Shown here piece by piece: positions 39,322 through 54,399 of a DNA stretch of 64,000 nucleotides. The notes under the pieces are model-generated. The model saw only the letters and a program-made list of their open reading frames with translations. It made no database searches and was not told the origin of the DNA. Made by a program: the position numbers and the translations under genes. This DNA is from Bacteroidales bacterium. GTDB lineage: Bacteria; Bacteroidota; Bacteroidia; Bacteroidales; UBA932. The stretch is taken from the NCBI GenBank assembly GCA_024402115.1, contig JAKSJQ010000002.1, positions 31,106 through 95,105 of the forward strand, in the 5' to 3' direction. Within the stretch, counting starts at the first letter, position 1. Every line of letters begins with the position of its first letter.

Positions 39322-40416
39322 TTACTTAGGTGCAATCTTATAAAGGAAGGCGGCCACGAAGGTGTAAACGATGTTTGGTATCCATAGCGCCATTCCCGGT
39401 GACATTCCTCCGGCATACACGAACATCTCACTGAACTTCAGGAAGAGGATGTAGGTGAAGGCGAGTGCGATTCCGATTCCGATGTTCCATCCTATGCCGC
39501 CTCTCTTCTTCTTAGAGGAGAGGGATACACCCATGATGGTGAGGATGAATGCCGAGAAAGGAAGCGCGATTCTCGTATGTTTCTCGATCAGGGTCTGGCG
39601 CACGTTCGCGTCGCCCCTGAGCCGCTGGGTCTCGATGAGCTTGTTCAGTTTCTGCTGCGGAAGCGTCGATACTGTCTTCTTGTCCCTGTAGAAGTCGGCC
39701 ACCTCAAGGTTGAGGACGGTGTCGATCTGAGCTCCGCTGGTGATCTTGTCGTCGAGGTTCTCGCCGTAGTCGCGGATGAAGTAGTCCTTCAGGGTCCAGC
39801 AGCACTTGGTGCTGTCGTATACCGCGGTCTCTGCCGAGAGCTTTGACACGAGCTGGTTGTCCTCGATCTGCTCGATGGTCATCTTGTACGCCGTGTTGTT
39901 CCAGCTGCTGAAGGACTCTACGTAGATGAACTGGCCCGGAGAAGTCTGGTAGTGGACGTCCCTCGAGGTGAATGACTGCGAACCGCTGACATACTTCTGC
40001 TCGAACGGTATTCGAGTCGCGTTGGCCCTCGGGATGACCCAGAGGTTGAGGCAGAGGGAGATGACGAAGATGATGAATGCGGAGAATATGTACGGAACCA
40101 TCATCCTGTGGTAGCTGATGCCGCAGGAGAGTATGGCCACGATCTCGGTGTTGGCGGCGAGCTTCGAGGTGAAGAATATGACGGTGATGAACACGAACAG
40201 AGGACTGAACATGTTCATGAAGTAAGGTACGAAGTTGAGGTAGTAGTCGACGACGATGGCCTTCAGCGGGGCTGAGTTGGACACGAAATCGTCGATTTTC
40301 TCGCTGATGTCGAAGATGATGACGATGCCGATGATGAGGATGAGCGACACGAAGAAGGTCGAGATGAACTTCTTCACTATGTACTTGTCCAATATCTTCG
40401 GTCTGAGGTCTATCAT
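39322..40416 (-). CDS. lptG: LptG/LptF-family lipopolysaccharide export permease
   Basis: The 364-residue protein has the YjgP/YjgQ layout: three N-terminal membrane helices (IVKKFISTFFVSLILIIGIVIIFD; FVITVIFFTSKLAANTEIVAILSCGISYHRMMVPY), a central periplasmic beta-jellyroll, and three C-terminal helices (HTRIALPFSAFILTIMGVSLSS; GGMSPGMALWIPNIVYTFVAAFL). It would pair with an LptF in the LptB2FG complex, and an LptF-like domain is encoded at 49840-48419. It lies 3 bp after tgt, a common tgt-lptG order in Bacteroidota. Confidence 0.9.
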   Translation of the reverse strand: MIDLRPKILDKYIVKKFISTFFVSLILIIGIVIIFDISEKIDDFVSNSAPLKAIVVDYYLNFVPYFMNMFSPLFVFITVIFFTSKLAANTEIVAILSCGISYHRMMVPYIFSAFIIFVISLCLNLWVIPRANATRIPFEQKYVSGSQSFTSRDVHYQTSPGQFIYVESFSSWNNTAYKMTIEQIEDNQLVSKLSAETAVYDSTKCCWTLKDYFIRDYGENLDDKITSGAQIDTVLNLEVADFYRDKKTVSTLPQQKLNKLIETQRLRGDANVRQTLIEKHTRIALPFSAFILTIMGVSLSSKKKRGGIGWNIGIGIALAFTYILFLKFSEMFVYAGGMSPGMALWIPNIVYTFVAAFLYKIAPK

Positions 40417-40419
40417 GGT

Positions 40420-41550
40420 CTAGAGTCTCTGAGATATTCTCTTAACGGTCACTTCCTTCCACTGCGCGAAGTCTCCGGCCTTGATGTGCTTGCGTGCTTC
40501 GCGGACGAGGTCGAGGTAGAAGGCGAGGTTGTGCTCGCTGGCAATCTGTGCCGCGAACATCTCGCCGGCTATGAAGAGGTGACGTACGTATGCCTTGCTG
40601 TAGGTGTGGTCGACGAATGAGCTTCCCTTAGGGTCGAGTTCGCTGAAGTCGTCCGCCCACTTCTTGTTCCTCATGTTCATGATGCCGTCCCAGGTGAAGA
40701 GCATGCCGTTGCGGCCGTTTCGGGTAGGCATCACGCAGTCGAACATGTCTATGCCCCTTGCGATGGCCTCAAGGAGGTTTGCAGGAGTGCCCACTCCCAT
40801 CAGGTAGCGTGCCTTGTCCTGCGGGATGACAGGGTTGAGGGTCTCTATCATCTCGTACATCTGCTCGGTAGGCTCACCGACGGCGAGTCCTCCGATTGCG
40901 ATTGCAGCGTCTGCATATTCGAGCGCATGCTCTGCTGCCTCCACGCGGAGGGCAGGGTAGACGCAACCCTGGATGATAGGGAGGAAGGCCTGGCTGTAGT
41001 CGTAGAGAGGCTCGGTCTCATGGAAGCGCTTCGAGAAACGCTCGAGCCAATTCTGGGTAAGCTTGAGCGACTTCTTTGCGTAGTTGTAGTCCGCGTCTCC
41101 CGGGCAGCACTCGTCGAAAGCCATGATGATGTCGGCACCGATGGCTCTCTGGGTGTCCACGTTGTTCTCCGGAGTGAATGTGTGTCTCGAACCGTCGATG
41201 TGGCTCTGGAAGGTACATCCTTCGGGAGTGATCTTGCGTATGCCGGTCAGCGAGAATACCTGGAATCCGCCGCTGTCGGTGAGGATAGGACGGTCCCATG
41301 ACTCGAACTTGTGGAGTCCTCCGACCTTCTTGAGCAGGTCGAGTCCCGGACGCAGGTAGAGGTGGTATGTGTTGCCGAGTATGATCTCGGCCTTTATGTC
41401 TTCCTTGAGGTCGCGATGGTACACTCCCTTTACCGATCCGACGGTGCCGACAGGCATGAAGATCGGGGTCTCGATCTTGCCGTGGTCCGTGGTCAGTATT
41501 CCGCATCTTGCGGAGCTGTTGGGGTCTTTTGCGGTCAATTCGAATGTCAT
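40420..41550 (-). CDS. tgt: tRNA-guanine transglycosylase
   Basis: The 376-residue enzyme exchanges guanine 34 for preQ1 in queuosine tRNAs. It has ILTDSGGFQVFSL with the catalytic Asp region, GGLAVGEP, MGVGTPANLLEAIARGIDMFDCVMPTRNGRNG, and EHNLAFYLDLVREAR. The usual zinc ligands CxCxxC after LDP are missing: the segment reads LDPKGSSFVDHTYSKAYVRHLF, although the later His is kept. This may be a lineage trait. It leads the minus operon tgt-lptG-polyferredoxin-reductase from a -7 box at 41584-41577. Confidence 0.93.
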   Translation of the reverse strand: MTFELTAKDPNSSARCGILTTDHGKIETPIFMPVGTVGSVKGVYHRDLKEDIKAEIILGNTYHLYLRPGLDLLKKVGGLHKFESWDRPILTDSGGFQVFSLTGIRKITPEGCTFQSHIDGSRHTFTPENNVDTQRAIGADIIMAFDECCPGDADYNYAKKSLKLTQNWLERFSKRFHETEPLYDYSQAFLPIIQGCVYPALRVEAAEHALEYADAAIAIGGLAVGEPTEQMYEMIETLNPVIPQDKARYLMGVGTPANLLEAIARGIDMFDCVMPTRNGRNGMLFTWDGIMNMRNKKWADDFSELDPKGSSFVDHTYSKAYVRHLFIAGEMFAAQIASEHNLAFYLDLVREARKHIKAGDFAQWKEVTVKRISQRL

Positions 41551-46691: not shown

Positions 46692-47348
46692 TCAGCTGAG
46701 GATGATCAGGGCGTAGGAGGGGTGGGAGAAGGTGAGGGTGACGGTGTCGGCGGAGGCGCGGTTGAGGGTCGCCTTCCACCAGTTGTCGAATACGACGTCG
46801 TCAGTCGGCCATACGAGTCCCTGGGACTTGATCTTGAGACTGTTGTCAGGAGTGAGGACTGAGACGGCCCTGCCGGCTCCGCAGTCGAAGCTGCAGCTGT
46901 CAGTGATCGCAAAGATGGTCGAGTAGTCAGAGACTATGTCGCAGGTTATGCCCCGCTTCGAAAAGCCGAATCTGCGCTCGTACTCCATGAGGAGGGAAAC
47001 GTTGCCTATGGTGTGGTCCTCACGCATGCCGGTTGCGCCGACGATGTGAATCTCCAACTCCTCATCCGGGAAACGCTGGAGGATATACTTGATGGCCTTG
47101 GTCTGGTCGTTGTCGTCCTGCTCGGTCTCATGGACTATGCGGTCGGCATAGCGCTTGCGGACCGAAGCGGGAAGTGAGTCCAGGTCACCGATCACGATGT
47201 CGGGAAGCTGGCGGCCGTCATGCTTCCGCCTGAGCCATCTGGTGAACGCACCGTCGCAGCAGATGAGGAAATTCGCGCTGTCGATGAGCCAGAGCGGATA
47301 TGGCTGACGAGGGTATTCCCCGTTTCCTATGATGGTGATGGTCTTCAT
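46692..47348 (-). CDS. thiN: Thiamine diphosphokinase
   Basis: The 218-residue enzyme transfers pyrophosphate from ATP to thiamine to give thiamine diphosphate. Family motifs: ICCDGAFTRWL, PDIVIGDLDSLP with metal-binding acidic residues, EQDDNDQTKAIKYIL, VGATGMREDHTIGNVSLL and a beta-sandwich substrate-binding end (SQGLVWPTDDVVFDNW). Length and layout are normal. It is the last gene of the alaS, lptF-fmt, thiN operon, 5 bp after the fusion gene. No THI-box riboswitch is seen nearby. Confidence 0.9.
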   Translation of the reverse strand: MKTITIIGNGEYPRQPYPLWLIDSANFLICCDGAFTRWLRRKHDGRQLPDIVIGDLDSLPASVRKRYADRIVHETEQDDNDQTKAIKYILQRFPDEELEIHIVGATGMREDHTIGNVSLLMEYERRFGFSKRGITCDIVSDYSTIFAITDSCSFDCGAGRAVSVLTPDNSLKIKSQGLVWPTDDVVFDNWWKATLNRASADTVTLTFSHPSYALIILS

Positions 47349-47353
47349 CAGCG

Positions 47354-49840
47354 CTATTCCTTAGGGGCGTGGGTCCTTCTGATGAACTCGACAGAGGTGC
47401 CCTGGGTGGTCTTGTAGCTGCAAGGCTCCCTGAAGCCGAGGAGGAATGACTTGGTGTCCATTCTCTTCTTTCCGCTGATCTGGAGTTCCTTGATCGAGAT
47501 GGCTCCGTCCGTGGTGGTGATCGCGAGGGTGTTCTTGCCGTCGCAGAGTATGGTACCTGGAGCTGGCTGCGCGCCGGCTTCGAGGCCGCTGAGGCCTGCG
47601 AGGGCCGCTGTCTGTGCGGCATCCATGCGCTCGGCAGAGTATATCTTCATCTGGACAGGCTCTGTGCCCTCCTTGTAGACTTCAGTGAAGGCTGCAGGAT
47701 ATGGGCTGAGACCCCTGATGAGATTGTAGATGTCCTTGCTGCGGGCGTTCCAGTCGATGTGACATAGCTCGCGTGTGAGCTTAGGTGCAGGCTTGAGGAC
47801 CTCGTCGCCCTGGATGAACGACTTCTGGACGCGGTTCTCGATATGGCCCTCGATGATGCCCTCGACGGTCTGGACGACCACCTTGGAGCCGAGTTCCATG
47901 AGCTTGTCATGAACGTCGCCGGCGTTGTCGGTCTTCTCGATCCTGATCTGCTCGCGCATCATTATGTTGCCGGTGTCGATGCCCTCGTCGATGAAGAAGG
48001 TGGTGACTCCTGTCACCTGGTCACCATTGATGACAGCCCAGTTGATAGGGGCCGCACCGCGGTACTGAGGGAGGAGGGCGGCGTGGAGATTGAAGGTTCC
48101 GAGGGCCGGGATCTCCCATACGACCTTTGGAAGCATCCTGAAGGCCACGACCACGAAGAGGTCAGGCTTGAGTGCCTTCATCGCGTCGACGAACTCTGGG
48201 TCCTTGAGCTTCTCAGGCTGGTACACAGGAATGCCGTGCTCTACGGCGTATTTCTTCACGGCGCTCTCGTTGACCTTCAGGCCGCGGCCTGAGGCCTTGT
48301 CCGGAACGGTTACGACAGCTGCGATATGATAACCCTGCTGGATGAGAGCGTCGAGAGGTGCCACCGCGAACTCCGGTGTACCCATGTATACGATCTGAGT
48401 CTTGTGGAAAACTGACATGACTTTTCTCTTAATCTTTCTGAAGAATGCCTTGAAACTGTCCATGTTGAACAGAGGCGAATCGTTGATGGCCTTCCATGTC
48501 AGGAAGAAGCCTATCGGAGCCAGCACTATGACGGATATGAACGCTCCCATGAAGCTGCCCACGGCTCCGTCTCGGGCAAGCTTGGTTCCGGAAACGTCGA
48601 CAACCCAGTACAGCACGAAGAAGAGCACCGAGACGATTGCCGGAGTTCCGAGACCACCCTTTCTGATGAGCGCGCCAAGAGGTGCGCCGATGAAGAAGAA
48701 TATGAAGCAGGCGAGTGCGCCGGCGAACTTCTTGAGTATGTTCTCGTCAGCGCGCCTGAGCACCCAGATGTATTGGATTGCGTCGCGGGAATAGCCCTCG
48801 AGCGTGTTCTGGAGCTCGTCTGCAGCCGAAATTGCACTGTCGTAAGCGTTGCGCTCCTCCTGCAGGTCCTTCCACACCATGAGGTCCTCCGGTGCGAACA
48901 TGGCCTTGTACTCCCTGTGGTTGGCGGAATCCAGCTGGTCATTGTATCTGAGACGGCGCCCGGTCCTGAACTCGTCCATCTGGGTGTCGTACATCTTGTT
49001 GTAGAGCAGGGTGAGCGAATCCTTCACGACATAGAGCTGGGAGAGCGGCATGGTCTTGACCTCGTCGCTGAACCTTCCGCTTTCGGACTTTTTGAATGCG
49101 TAGTTCTCCAGGGGAATCACCATCTCCTGGAGCTTGAAGTCGATCTGCTGGAGCTGGAGGGTCGTGTCCCTGTACCTTCGGTTGTTTGTCTCCTCGTAGT
49201 TGGTTCCATTGTACATGGAGAAGGTGAGGAAGCTCTTGTCCGGGGACATGACCATGAGTGCGGAATCGGCGATGGTGAGGCTGACGTTACCCTTGCTGCC
49301 GGTGTGGTCGTAGACCATGACGCCGTGCATCATGCCGGTCTCGGCATCCCTGTCGTCGATTCGGAGAATATAGCCGTCGATGCCGTCGTAGAAGGTGCCT
49401 TCCGGAATCTTGATCTCGTTCTTGGTGCGCAGGATGTCGTCCCTGAGCGTGTAGATCTCGTTGTAGGCAATAGGCACAAGGTTGTTCGTCGCGAAGAAGG
49501 TTCCTATCGCGATGAGGACGGATACGAGTGTGAGCGGGAGCATGATCCTCTGGAGCGAGATTCCGGCAGCCTTGATCGCGAGCAGTTCGTTGTTCTCTCC
49601 GAGGTTTCCCATGGTCATCATCGAGGAGAGGAGGGTCGCGAGAGGCAGCGCCAGAGGCAGCAGCGTCGCGCATCCCCATCCCATGAATTCGATGATCACA
49701 CGAAAGCCGAGACCCTTTCCTACCAGCTCATCGATGTACAGCCAAAGGAACTGCATCATCAGGATGAACACGACGACGAAGAGGATCGCAACGAACGGTC
49801 CTATGAACGTCTTCAGTATGAACTGGTCCAGCTTCTTCAT
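47354..49840 (-). CDS. LptF-like permease fused to methionyl-tRNA formyltransferase
   Basis: One uninterrupted 828-residue frame joins two unrelated proteins. Residues 1-474 are an LptF/YjgP permease (MKKLDQFILKTFIGPFVAILFVVVFILMMQFLWLYIDELVGKG; NNELLAIKAAGISLQRIMLPL; C-terminal helices ending TWKAINDSPLFNMD). Residues 475-828 are a complete Fmt: IVYMGTPEFAVAPLDAL, FNLHAALLPQYRGAAPINWAV with catalytic Asn/His, and DEGIDTGNIM with the catalytic Asp. The junction reads FRKIKRKV-MSVFHKTQ; ATG 48418 could also start a separate 354-residue Fmt. The linker is on the cytosolic side, where Fmt works. It lies in an operon between alaS (12 bp) and thiN (5 bp). Confidence 0.85.
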   Translation of the reverse strand: MKKLDQFILKTFIGPFVAILFVVVFILMMQFLWLYIDELVGKGLGFRVIIEFMGWGCATLLPLALPLATLLSSMMTMGNLGENNELLAIKAAGISLQRIMLPLTLVSVLIAIGTFFATNNLVPIAYNEIYTLRDDILRTKNEIKIPEGTFYDGIDGYILRIDDRDAETGMMHGVMVYDHTGSKGNVSLTIADSALMVMSPDKSFLTFSMYNGTNYEETNNRRYRDTTLQLQQIDFKLQEMVIPLENYAFKKSESGRFSDEVKTMPLSQLYVVKDSLTLLYNKMYDTQMDEFRTGRRLRYNDQLDSANHREYKAMFAPEDLMVWKDLQEERNAYDSAISAADELQNTLEGYSRDAIQYIWVLRRADENILKKFAGALACFIFFFIGAPLGALIRKGGLGTPAIVSVLFFVLYWVVDVSGTKLARDGAVGSFMGAFISVIVLAPIGFFLTWKAINDSPLFNMDSFKAFFRKIKRKVMSVFHKTQIVYMGTPEFAVAPLDALIQQGYHIAAVVTVPDKASGRGLKVNESAVKKYAVEHGIPVYQPEKLKDPEFVDAMKALKPDLFVVVAFRMLPKVVWEIPALGTFNLHAALLPQYRGAAPINWAVINGDQVTGVTTFFIDEGIDTGNIMMREQIRIEKTDNAGDVHDKLMELGSKVVVQTVEGIIEGHIENRVQKSFIQGDEVLKPAPKLTRELCHIDWNARSKDIYNLIRGLSPYPAAFTEVYKEGTEPVQMKIYSAERMDAAQTAALAGLSGLEAGAQPAPGTILCDGKNTLAITTTDGAISIKELQISGKKRMDTKSFLLGFREPCSYKTTQGTSVEFIRRTHAPKE

Positions 49841-49852
49841 TAAATGTCGGAC

Positions 49853-52474
49853 TTATTTGGTCGCAGCTGCAACGAGTGCGTGAAGGGCGTCCTTGAGTCC
49901 GCCGCAGTTCCTACCACCGGCAGTTGCGAGACCAGGCTGTCCGCCGCCACCGCCCTGGATGAACTTGGCAGCATCGCGGATGTCCTTGCCTGCGTTCTTG
50001 CCTGCTGCTACGAGATCAGCCGAGTACATGAGCACGAGCTGTGGCTTGCCCTCGGACTCGATGGCTGCTGCGAGAGCAGTGTTCTTGAGCTCCTTCTGGA
50101 GGTTGGCAGCAGCGTCCCTGAGCATTGCTGGTTCGAATGAGAGGGCGCTGTTGATGGAGATGACGTTGATTCCGTTGATCTCCTTAGCCATTGAGCTGAG
50201 CTCCTTGGCAAGCTCTGCGGCCTTCTGCTTTGCGAAAGCCTCAGCCTGCTTCTTGTATTCTGAGTTCTCGTTGATGAGCTTCTGGATTGCGCCTGCGAGG
50301 TCTGGCACGTTGTTGAAGAATGCCTTTGCGGTGCGGAGAGCCTCCTGAGCTGCCTCAGAGTGCATCTCTGCTGCGAAGCCGGTCACAGCCTCGATACGGC
50401 GGATACCTGCAGCGATGGCAGACTCGCCGGTAATCTGGAAGTATCCGATCTTACCGGTAGCGTCGGTGTGGCAACCACCGCAGAGCTCGATGCTCCTGCC
50501 GAACTTCACCACGCGGACGCGGTCGCCGTACTTCTCTCCGAAGAGTGCGATTGCGCCCATCTCCTTAGCCTCTTCCATGGTGGCGTCGCGCTTCTCCTCG
50601 AGTGGGAGGTTCTCACGGATGATGGCGTTCACCTTGTGCTCGATCTCGCGGATCTGTGCGTCGGTGAGCTTCTCGAAATGGCTGAAGTCGAAACGGAAGT
50701 AGTTGTCGCAGACGTATGAACCCTTCTGCTCCACATGTGTTCCGAGAACGTCGCGGAGGACGCCGTCGAGAAGGTGGGTACAGCTGTGGTTGTTCGCGAT
50801 CTTCTGCCTGCGCTCTGCGTCTACCACGAGGGTGAAGCTCTCGCTAGGGTCTGAAGGCATCTTCTCTGCGATATGTACGGTGAGACCGTTCTCCTTGACG
50901 GTGTTGAGGATGGCGATCTGCTCGCCGCTCTCTGAGATGATCACGCCGGTGTCACCGACCTCACCACCCATCTCGCCGTAGAACGGGGTCTGGTCGAAGA
51001 CGAGCTGGAGCATCTCCTTGTTCTTCTGCTTAACCACACGCTGGCGGAGAAGCTGTGCGACCTCCACTGTGGTCTGGTCGTAACCTACGAACTCGGTCTC
51101 TCCGGCCTTGTACTCAACCCAGTCGCCGAACTCGTTGGCGGTAGCGTTGCGTGCGCGCTCCTTCTGCTTCTGAAGCTCCACGTTGAAGCCGTCGAGGTCT
51201 ACCTTGTATCCGTTCTCACCTGCGATGAGCTCGGTAAGGTCGATAGGGAAACCGAAGGTGTCATAGAGCTTGAATGCATCTGCGCCTGCGATGACCTTGC
51301 TGTCCTTCGCTGCTGCCATGCACTCGTCCATGAGCCTGATTCCGCGGTCGAGGGTCTTGAGGAATGCGTTCTCCTCCTCACGGATGACGCTCTCGATGAG
51401 CTTCTGCTGCTTCTCGATCTCCGGATAAGCCTCACCCATGTCATGGATGAGCTGAGGGACGAGGCGGCAGAGGAAAGGCTCGTTGAAGCCGAGGAAGGTG
51501 TATCCGTAGCGGACTGCACGGCGGAGGATTCGGCGGATCACATATCCTGCCTTCACGTTGGAAGGAAGCTGGCCGTCAGCGATAGAGAAGCTGATGGTAC
51601 GGATATGGTCGGCGATCACGCGCATCGCGATGTCGCACTTCTTGTCCTGGCCGTAGCTGTGTCCCGAAAGCTCGCCGATCTTTGCGAGCATGCCGGTGAA
51701 CACGTCTGAGTCGTAGTTGCTGTTCTTGCCCTGGAGCACTGCGCAGAGGCGCTCGAAGCCCATTCCTGTGTCGATGTTCTTTGCAGGGAGGCTCTCGAGG
51801 TGTCCGTCTGCCATGCGCATGTACTGCATGAAGACGATGTTCCAGATCTCGATCACATGTGGATCGTCGTGGTTCACGAGGTCGCGTCCGAGCACGCCGC
51901 TTGCCTTCTCCTCAGGAGTACGGATGTCGATGTGGATCTCTGAGCAAGGACCGCAAGGACCGGTGTCGCCCATCTCCCAGAAGTTGTCATGCTTGTTTCC
52001 GAGGACGATGTGGTCCTCAGGGAGATGCTTGAGCCATGCTTCCTTGGCCTCGAGGTCGAGCTCGGTGCCGTCCTCAGGTGAGCCTTCGAAGATGGTTGCG
52101 TAGAGTATGCTCTTGTCGATCTTGAACACGTCGGTAAGGAGCTCCCATGCCATGTCGATGGCCTCGGTCTTGAAATAGTCGCCGAAGCTCCAGTTTCCGA
52201 GCATCTCGAACATGGTGTGGTGGTAGGTGTCATGTCCCACCTCCTCAAGGTCGTTATGCTTGCCGCTGACGCGGAGACATTTCTGTGAATCGGCAGCCCT
52301 GTCCCACTTCTTCTTCGCGTTGCCGAGGAAGATGTCCTTGAACTGGTTCATGCCTGCGTTTGTGAACATGAGGGTAGGGTCGCCCTTGACTACCATCGGT
52401 GCAGACGGTACGATGGCGTGTCCCTTTGATGCGAAATAGTCCAGGAATGCCTGGCGGATTTCTTTGGATGTCAT
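49853..52474 (-). CDS. alaS: Alanyl-tRNA synthetase
   Basis: The 873-residue class II synthetase has motif 1 ([39 protein letters not shown]), [11 protein letters not shown] (motif 3 region), an editing domain with [16 protein letters not shown] and [17 protein letters not shown] zinc-binding residues, and the C-Ala domain ending [16 protein letters not shown]. All domains are present at normal length. It is the first gene of a minus operon, with a -7 box at 52516-52509. Confidence 0.97.
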
Positions 52475-52516: not shown

Positions 52517-52528
52517 CAACAAATATTG

Positions 52529-52536
52529 TATATTTG
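52529..52536 (+). promoter_or_regulatory. -7 promoter box for the M23 peptidase genes
   Basis: TATATTTG ends only 4 nt before ATG 52541; transcription would start at or just before that ATG. Confidence 0.55.
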
Positions 52537-52540
52537 CGCG

Positions 52541-53485
52541 ATGTCAAAGTCCAAAAAGCGCATATATATGGTACGCGGGGTGGGATTCTTCGTCCTCACC
52601 GTGGCGATGTATGCACTTTTCTTCTGGCTCTACAACGTCGTGTTCGAACTTGAGCAGCCGATGAGCTACTTTCTTCGTAGAAGGAATTCTTCTTGGGCCG
52701 CGAAGGTCGAGCTGATGGGCAGAAGGATGGACACTTACGAGGAGATTCTCAATCATCTGGAGCAGAGGGACAACGAGGTCTATCGCTCCGTGTTCGGTAT
52801 GAATGAGATTCCGTCAGAGGTGCGTGACGCCGGAATCGGAGGCGTGAACCGCTATGAGCCTTTTGCGGACCTTTCCGACTCCAGCCTCCTGAAAACCACG
52901 GCGATACGTCTCGACAGGCTGACAAAGAAAGCCTATATCCAGAGCAAGTCCTTCGACGAGGTGTTCGCCCTTGCGGTGAGTGCCGGCGACATGGGTACCA
53001 GCGTTCCTTCGATACCGCCAATGTATCCTGACGCATACATCATGCTGACCAGTACCTTCGGTTACAGAGAGGATCCTGTATGGGGAGGAGCTGCTCGCCA
53101 CACTGGAATTGACCTTGCGACGGACAAGGGCAATCCTGTCTACGCGACCGGCGCCGGAGTGGTGGAGAGCGTGACTTCGGATTCCCGTGGTTACGGTCTC
53201 ATGGTCGTGCTAGACCATGGTTTCGGATATAAGACCAGATATGCCCATCTGAACGCTGCCGTGGTGACCGAGGGACAGCATGTCGACAGGGGAGATCACA
53301 TCGCATATTCGGGCCAGTCGGGAAAGTGTACCGGTGCTCACCTCCACTACGAGGTGCTATACAGGAACAATTATGTCAACCCTCTGAATTACATGGACTT
53401 GGATATACATCTTGCTGACTATAGGAACATGGTCAAACTCGTCCCTCGACAGAAGGGGACGACGGCAAGGAGGCGCAGGAGATAG
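52541..53485 (+). CDS. M23 family metallopeptidase, membrane-anchored (first copy)
   Basis: The 314-residue protein has a basic N-terminus and one membrane helix (GVGFFVLTVAMYALFFWLYNVVF, about residues 14-36), a long periplasmic linker, and a C-terminal LytM domain: FGYREDPVWGGAARHTGIDLA (zinc His and Asp) and GAHLHYEV (HxH). It would cut peptidoglycan cross-links or act on cell-wall remodelling. The -7 box lies so close that ATG 52541 would be nearly leaderless; ATG 52568 (MVRGVGFF) is a real alternative. A related M23 gene follows after 2 bp. Confidence 0.85.
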   Translation: MSKSKKRIYMVRGVGFFVLTVAMYALFFWLYNVVFELEQPMSYFLRRRNSSWAAKVELMGRRMDTYEEILNHLEQRDNEVYRSVFGMNEIPSEVRDAGIGGVNRYEPFADLSDSSLLKTTAIRLDRLTKKAYIQSKSFDEVFALAVSAGDMGTSVPSIPPMYPDAYIMLTSTFGYREDPVWGGAARHTGIDLATDKGNPVYATGAGVVESVTSDSRGYGLMVVLDHGFGYKTRYAHLNAAVVTEGQHVDRGDHIAYSGQSGKCTGAHLHYEVLYRNNYVNPLNYMDLDIHLADYRNMVKLVPRQKGTTARRRRR

Positions 53486-53487
53486 CT

Positions 53488-54399
53488 ATGAGAAACAGGA
53501 AGGAAGATATGAGGATCGTGGGTAGCGTGCTGAGGTGGTTCTTCAGCGCGGCTGTCTTCGTGTGCCTGTACCATCTGGCCTTCGTTCTCGTGTTCCCGAA
53601 GGACAGCGACAGGATAGTGATGAGGGAAAACAGGATGTATGAGAAGCTCTACTCCCGGATGAGGGAACAGGAGCGACTTCTCCATGACGCGGTCGAATTC
53701 CTGGAGATCAGGGACGACGAGATCTACAACAATCTCTTCAATACTTCCGTCCCTTCCATCACTGACCTGGAGATAGGTACGGCCCTTCCGAACGACGGTG
53801 AGGATCTCAGCGACAACAAGATATATGCTTATGCTGCAGAAAAGGCGGAAAGCATTGAGGCTGCGTCACTTACGGTTGAGGAAAACTTCCGCAGGATCTT
53901 TGAGATAACGGGTGCGGAAGGGTATGCCACCCCTCCTATGGTGGTGCCGGTGGAAGGCTTCACCGTGTCCAGGACCGGAGCGTCTGTGGGCCCGAAGGTG
54001 AGCCCGTTCTACAAGGTCTCGACGAGCCATGACGGACTCGACCTGATCGCTCCCGTGGGTACCGCGGTGCTCGCCGGCGGACCTGGTGTCGTGATGAAGG
54101 TGGTGCGCTCCATCCAGGCGGACGGAAACACCGTGTTCATCGACCATGGAAACGGATATGTGACCCGATATTCGCATCTCGGAGAGATCAAGGTCGGCCC
54201 GGGAAGGAAGGTCAAGGCCGGTGAGAAGATAGGTACCGTCGGCATGTCTGGAAAGTCATTCGCGCCGCACCTGCACTACACCGTGATGCGCGGCAATGTG
54301 GTCTGCGATCCTGTGAACTTCATGTTCGCAAGCGTTTCGCCGATGGACTATGCGGAGATGCTCGTGCTTTCGAGCTCGACCGCACAACAGATGGATTAA
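53488..54399 (+). CDS. M23 family metallopeptidase, membrane-anchored (second copy)
   Basis: The 303-residue protein has the same plan as its upstream neighbour: one membrane helix (WFFSAAVFVCLYHLAFVLVF, about residues 18-37), a coiled linker (MREQERLLHDAVEFLEIRDDEIYNNLF), and a LytM domain with VSTSHDGLDLIAPVGT (His, Asp) and FAPHLHYTV (HxH). The zinc ligands are intact in both copies, so both may be active. The pair seems a tandem duplication with strongly diverged linkers. The MerR-type gene starts 16 bp downstream. Confidence 0.87.
   Translation: MRNRKEDMRIVGSVLRWFFSAAVFVCLYHLAFVLVFPKDSDRIVMRENRMYEKLYSRMREQERLLHDAVEFLEIRDDEIYNNLFNTSVPSITDLEIGTALPNDGEDLSDNKIYAYAAEKAESIEAASLTVEENFRRIFEITGAEGYATPPMVVPVEGFTVSRTGASVGPKVSPFYKVSTSHDGLDLIAPVGTAVLAGGPGVVMKVVRSIQADGNTVFIDHGNGYVTRYSHLGEIKVGPGRKVKAGEKIGTVGMSGKSFAPHLHYTVMRGNVVCDPVNFMFASVSPMDYAEMLVLSSSTAQQMD

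Follow-up and report, generated by a model that had tools for sequence, protein, structure and literature searches.

Within the window, a stretch of 64,000 nucleotides from a Bacteroidales bacterium, an ATG-started reading frame of 828 codons runs uninterrupted on the minus strand from 49840 to 47354. It encodes an LptF/LptG-family permease followed, with no intervening stop codon, by a methionyl-tRNA formyltransferase (Fmt), as a fused product of 828 aa and 92.6 kDa. The original prediction had described such a frame, leaving its strand unstated, and the frame itself, Pfam and the NCBIfam equivalog TIGR00460 bear it out. Residues 7–450 (48491..49822) match the LptF_LptG domain (Pfam PF03739, E = 6e-66, 223 bits against a cut-off of 27.9), residues 483–659 (47864..48394) match Formyl_trans_N (Pfam, E = 7e-38) and residues 687–803 (47432..47782) match Formyl_trans_C (Pfam, E = 3e-21). 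Between the two halves lies the junction (residues 455–482, 48395..48478), a lysine-rich linker with a translation-initiation-like stretch. Codon 475, an in-frame ATG at 48416..48418 whose first base is 48418, is the candidate internal start of a free Fmt of 354 aa and 38.9 kDa (47354..48418), a possible second product suggested by the signals at the junction. All of these features lie on the minus strand.

The Fmt half scores over the cut-off of TIGR00460 (fmt) with 239.3 bits versus 201.5. The permease half scores under the equivalog cut-offs of both LptF (TIGR04407, 136 versus 230) and LptG (TIGR04408, 82 versus 240), and we name it LptF/LptG family rather than LptF. Alignment with 1fmt places N584, H586 and D622 of the fusion on the residues that act in catalysis in E. 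coli Fmt. We take them to be the catalytic Asn, His and Asp by their roles in that enzyme, and all three are invariant in 82/82 aligned fused proteins. The claim that both halves are complete is upheld. The TIGR00460 score and the catalytic residues place the Fmt half in the Fmt family, and it is predicted to formylate Met-tRNA(fMet). In a structure model of the fusion (mean pLDDT of 84), the Fmt half matches the solved Fmt structures 2fmt and 4iqf with a target TM of about 0.9, and confidence at the junction is low at residues 457–460 and 474–476; the relative placement of the two halves, at a pTM of 0.47, was left unused. By the known topology of LptF, the Fmt half is presumably on the cytosolic side, and we infer an inner-membrane permease that carries a complete Fmt at its cytosolic C-terminus.

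The upstream neighbour alaS (49853..52474, minus strand; Pfam tRNA-synt_2c) is separated from the fusion by 12 nt. Downstream, after a gap of 5 nt, comes a thiamine pyrophosphokinase gene (46692..47348, minus strand; Pfam TPK_catalytic), called thiN in the original prediction. The three genes are intact, tightly packed and on one strand, in agreement with the earlier statement that the fusion is not part of a decayed region. Among clade-A loci with room to tell, alaS lies upstream of the fusion in 90/91 and the thiamine pyrophosphokinase gene follows in the same downstream order in 79/85. The window has its own second, unfused LptF/LptG-family permease gene at 39322–40416, adjoining tgt. This short permease (364 aa) comes directly after tgt, the pair occupying 39322–41550 on the minus strand, 7 kb from the fusion. 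According to an excerpt of PMC11130926, tests of LptF/LptG-family proteins from three further Bacteroidota for preQ1 transport were unsuccessful. On the plus strand, 52526–54399 holds two adjoining genes with a Peptidase_M23 domain in each.

The fusion is shared by every near relative that was read. A first genome scan found 286 loci, of which the best 80 by similarity were kept, and the frame is uninterrupted in 80/80 of these; the nearest named relative is Candidatus Cryptobacteroides caccocaballi, with 92% identity over the full length. From a genus sample of 400 genomes, 396 matched, about 16 of them weakly (E above 1e-150) and outside the loci examined, and the genes are fused in 108/108 loci read from the matches listed, comprising 63 near-copies of the first set and 45 new loci (<98.5% DNA identity to the earlier set). 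The domain pair of the original prediction thus recurs throughout its near relatives. Distinct fused sequences number 170 in all; for clade grouping, 121 of 125 distinct fused sequences were used, with L088, L102 and the truncated pair L126 and L127 standing apart. The best 120 of 7,877 protein matches all carry the three Pfam domains in 808–839 aa.

Further out, both arrangements occur. In a family sample of 149 genomes (148 matched; 40/149 outside the DNA reading), 50 are fused, namely 46 among the 105 loci L088–L192, two of them cut by contig ends beyond the junction, plus L081–L084. In a further 56, lptF and fmt are separate genes no more than 71 nt apart; one has an intervening gene and two run off the contig. 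The original prediction had named relatives with two genes and a stop at this point as evidence against a fusion: near relatives have none, but distant family members do, in the form of two touching genes. Among the matches listed, which rank full-length matches first, 3/295 are fused in an order sample (G001, G034 and G017, all inside the family) and 1/395 in a phylum sample (G001, the reference genome itself); no fusion outside the window's Bacteroidales family appears among the matches listed in either sample.

One could suspect an artefact of assembly or sequencing, masking a stop codon or frameshift, on the grounds that titled records are mostly metagenome assemblies. The recurrence of the same frame in all of the best 80 of 286 loci and in 108/108 genus-sample loci rules out sequencing error, and both halves are under purifying selection, with dN/dS of 0.03–0.15 in 12/13 close pairs and the remaining pair nearly identical. 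We regard the likelihood of an artefact as negligible. The fusion is genuine and conserved in a group of gut bacteria.

The fused gene is also the only recognizable fmt where it occurs. In 59/59 fused genomes searched, exactly one gene, the fused one, scores over the fmt cut-off and no second fmt does; weaker matches in these 59 genomes fall below the cut-off, as judged by score and length alone. The Fmt half resembles known Fmt (TIGR00460; 1fmt/2fmt, 4iqf) in score, catalytic residues and fold, and differs from it in being attached C-terminally to a membrane permease and in being the sole Fmt over the cut-off in those genomes. A second, unfused LptF/G permease is present in 57/59 fused genomes searched, LptB is over its cut-off in 29/30 and peptide deformylase in 30/30. 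The permease half is like the LptF/LptG permease of the LPS exporter (PF03739) in its whole-domain match and in the presence of LptB and a second permease in the genomes, and unlike it in carrying a tRNA enzyme and in scoring under both the LptF and LptG equivalog cut-offs.

Comparison across the family suggests how the two genes came together. In 7/7 inspected loci where lptF and fmt are not adjacent (six from outside the family and L191 from within it; one has further genes as well), ribBA lies between the two; this gene was identified by sight, and Pfam agrees in the two loci checked. Most of the family genomes searched lack ribBA or carry it elsewhere, and DHBP synthase was not found in 40/52 family genomes searched, fused and unfused, these being draft genomes in which some absences may be gaps. 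Without the intervening ribBA, the end of lptF abuts the start of fmt or runs a few bases into it, often in another frame. In this Bacteroidales family, the disappearance or relocation of ribBA would have placed lptF directly before fmt, touching or overlapping it, and loss of the stop codon, or a change of frame, would then have joined the two genes in at least three lineages. At L089, L090, L091 and L125, lptF and fmt are in-frame and parted by stop codons and a few codons, an arrangement that resembles a pre-fusion state. Deletions are described in an excerpt of PMC12803068 as bringing coding sequences together, with fusion following and with distant gene fragments being joined. Unlike the fusions in that excerpt, the present one would unite two complete genes after loss of an intervening gene; the main text of PMC12803068 makes no mention of LptF, formyltransferase or 'Bacteroid-'.

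A tree of 130 rows included 21 of the 80 first loci and excluded 14 named later ones that were duplicates, truncated or far apart. On it, the fused state requires four changes, three of which are forced by well-supported branches. A tree of 63 rows, hand-picked from the 130 and computed under a mixture model, gave the same result. AU tests rejected a single origin of all fused rows (p = 1e-47), a single clade of fused rows minus L088 (p = 4e-5) and clades A, B and C as one clade (p = 1e-4), and did not reject clades A and B as one clade (p = 0.58). The fused L088 and the two-gene L192 are sisters on the tree, which indicates a separate fusion event. The fused state thus changed at least three times, a count that alone cannot tell gain from loss. 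Three observations lead us to read the changes as gains, and to infer that at least three of them were: the fusion is absent from the outgroups, the two frames differ in many unfused relatives, and linkers vary from one fused clade to another.

Repeated gain could reflect functional coupling, with Fmt anchored at the LPS transporter for formylation near membrane-bound ribosomes, for example, or for a 1:1 ratio of LptF to Fmt. Such coupling would fit the three or more changes to or from the fused state, the retention of the fusion in 170 distinct sequences, and the existence of lineages without an internal start signal in which all Fmt is seemingly on a membrane protein. However, the genes adjoin and often overlap in unfused family members, so stop loss alone explains repeated fusion; two genes are kept in many sister lineages, and the linker differs from one fused clade to the next. 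We consider functional coupling improbable. Similarly doubtful is the wider proposition that part of the family formylates all of its initiator tRNA with an exporter-fixed enzyme selected for coupling envelope export to initiation, with the window's lineage as an intermediate that would still draw a soluble copy from an internal start.

We analysed the junction for signs of that internal start, beginning with the ATG itself. It is kept at codon 475 in 58/89 main-clade sequences of the 121-sequence grouping and, in a larger set of 134 main-clade sequences, in 89, with 45 lacking it. Another ATG at −10 to −4 occurs in 23/45 main-clade sequences without the codon-475 ATG versus 3/89 with it, a difference whose Fisher P of 1e-10 is inflated by the relatedness of the sequences. 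No ATG is found at −11 to −4 in 22/134 main-clade sequences, and 18 have none in −25 to −3. The clade nearest to the window pair (L014, L029) is without the ATG. In clade B, codons −25 to −4 lack an in-frame ATG in 20/22 sequences and contain no ATG, GTG or TTG in 13/22. These clade-B and main-clade sequences reject a universal internal start, and the second product therefore cannot be essential group-wide unless GTG or TTG, present in some of them, is used.

Initiation in Bacteroidetes reportedly dispenses with Shine–Dalgarno sequences and is tuned through mRNA structure and an A at −3 (excerpt of PMC6847099). Mean mRNA folding energy is −4.1 kcal/mol at the codon-475 ATG, −5.5 at the true start and −10.0 at other internal ATGs, and A content at the same three kinds of site is 0.54, 0.37 and 0.24. 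Relative to synonymous shuffles, the 89 ATG sequences show weaker structure and higher A content (mean z of 1.0 and 1.45, respectively), and the same bias holds in the 23 sequences with a nearby ATG. Sequences without an ATG (n = 22) have a slight bias of the same sign (z of 0.41 and 0.55), and the bias is about zero in clades B (22 sequences) and C (10 sequences). The junction of the window folds at −2.9 kcal/mol versus −9.6 ± 2.9 for its shuffles, and 0/60 shuffles are as weak. Such shuffles leave the protein sequence unchanged, so the A-rich, weakly folded stretch is not accounted for by lysine content. An A at −3 is found at 71% of the 89 ATG sites versus 36% of other internal ATGs; in the window, this position of the codon-475 ATG is a G.

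A second signature would be depressed synonymous change. Random pairs gave no excess codon conservation at the junction, either in the main clade (0.87–1.03, where values above 1 denote excess), for which the test averages over diverged pairs, or in its ATG-bearing subset (0.86–1.11), and our initial reading from this test, that there was no internal start signal, was dropped after close-pair tests. In 23 first-set close pairs with the ATG in both members, the linker has 0.63 of the expected synonymous change, versus 0.88–1.03 in other groups, the grouping by ATG having been made after the first 44 pairs were seen. Across 60 close pairs in all, the 35 with the ATG in both members have an observed/expected ratio in the linker of 0.70 [0.58–0.80] versus 0.91 in the remaining 25 pairs (permutation P = 0.003); in two control regions the groups do not differ. 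Beyond the first 30 codons of the gene, the lowest 10-codon window is −15 to −6, on the ATG, at 0.45; the true gene start has a value of 0.60 in close pairs. Among ATG pairs, the 17 with at least one new sequence give 0.79 [0.65–0.92] and the eight that are all new give 0.76 [0.52–0.95]; 14/24 second-set pairs include a first-set sequence, and the upstream half alone in the second set gives 0.89 [0.75–1.02]. Between the window and its nearest relative, a single linker codon differs, against 5.9 expected. Collectively, these patterns indicate that start-like nucleotide features are under selection at the in-frame ATG in the close relatives that keep it, and the proposal that the ATG at 48418 acts as a second start giving free Fmt gains support at the level of sequence signals.

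The same data can be read differently, with the full-length fusion alone being made, the ATG an ordinary methionine and the A-rich stretch of weak structure a relic of the fmt start or a consequence of the lysine-rich linker. Stability of the fusion without an upstream ATG in 20/22 clade-B sequences speaks for this, as do the 22/134 main-clade sequences without one at −11 to −4, the negative random-pair codon tests and the want of an A at −3 in the window. However, shuffles that preserve the amino acids leave lysine content as no explanation, and a relic is not expected to give depressed synonymous change today, nor replacement ATGs where the first is missing. On balance we regard exclusive production of the full-length protein as possible but considerably less likely than two products.

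For the window's lineage, two products from one frame is the likeliest reading of these sequence comparisons. The old fmt start would still be used, with ribosomes initiating also at AUG 48418, so that one frame would yield a 93 kDa LptF–Fmt and a 39 kDa free Fmt. We assign a probability of roughly 0.65 to this interpretation as a whole: a conserved fusion that is the sole Fmt gene in the fused genomes searched and that, in the window's lineage, is also translated from the internal AUG. In E. coli, cheA and infB are each translated from a single frame into a long product and a shorter, C-terminal one. Unlike those genes, the fusion has parts from two unrelated genes, and its internal start would be the one from which the second gene was formerly translated.

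Lineages without such a start would depend on the fused enzyme alone. Absence of the ATG from 20/22 clade-B sequences means that the fusion itself probably serves as Fmt there, and clade B, together with some main-clade species, seems to make the fused form alone, barring cleavage or initiation at a rarer start codon. A post-translational cut of the fused chain into LptF and Fmt would serve these lineages, and model confidence is low at two points of the junction; yet no common cleavage motif is apparent by eye and the linkers differ between clades, and we consider cleavage unlikely. Our survey of literature on the fusion, its genes and gene fusion, in which most subscription journals were outside coverage, showed no paper on an LptF–Fmt fusion among the matches listed, and a survey on internal starts with the same coverage yielded no paper.

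The few source-given names among the best 120 of 7,877 protein matches cover one half alone, a warning for annotation. The failure to find DHBP synthase in 40/52 family genomes searched means that many such gut bacteria may need external riboflavin. In one gut lineage, a widespread translation-initiation enzyme is found solely within the gene of a membrane transporter. The family forms a natural series from separate genes through overlapping genes to a fusion with a likely internal start and a fusion without one, and this series lets one ask how gene fusions settle and whether formylation tolerates membrane anchoring.
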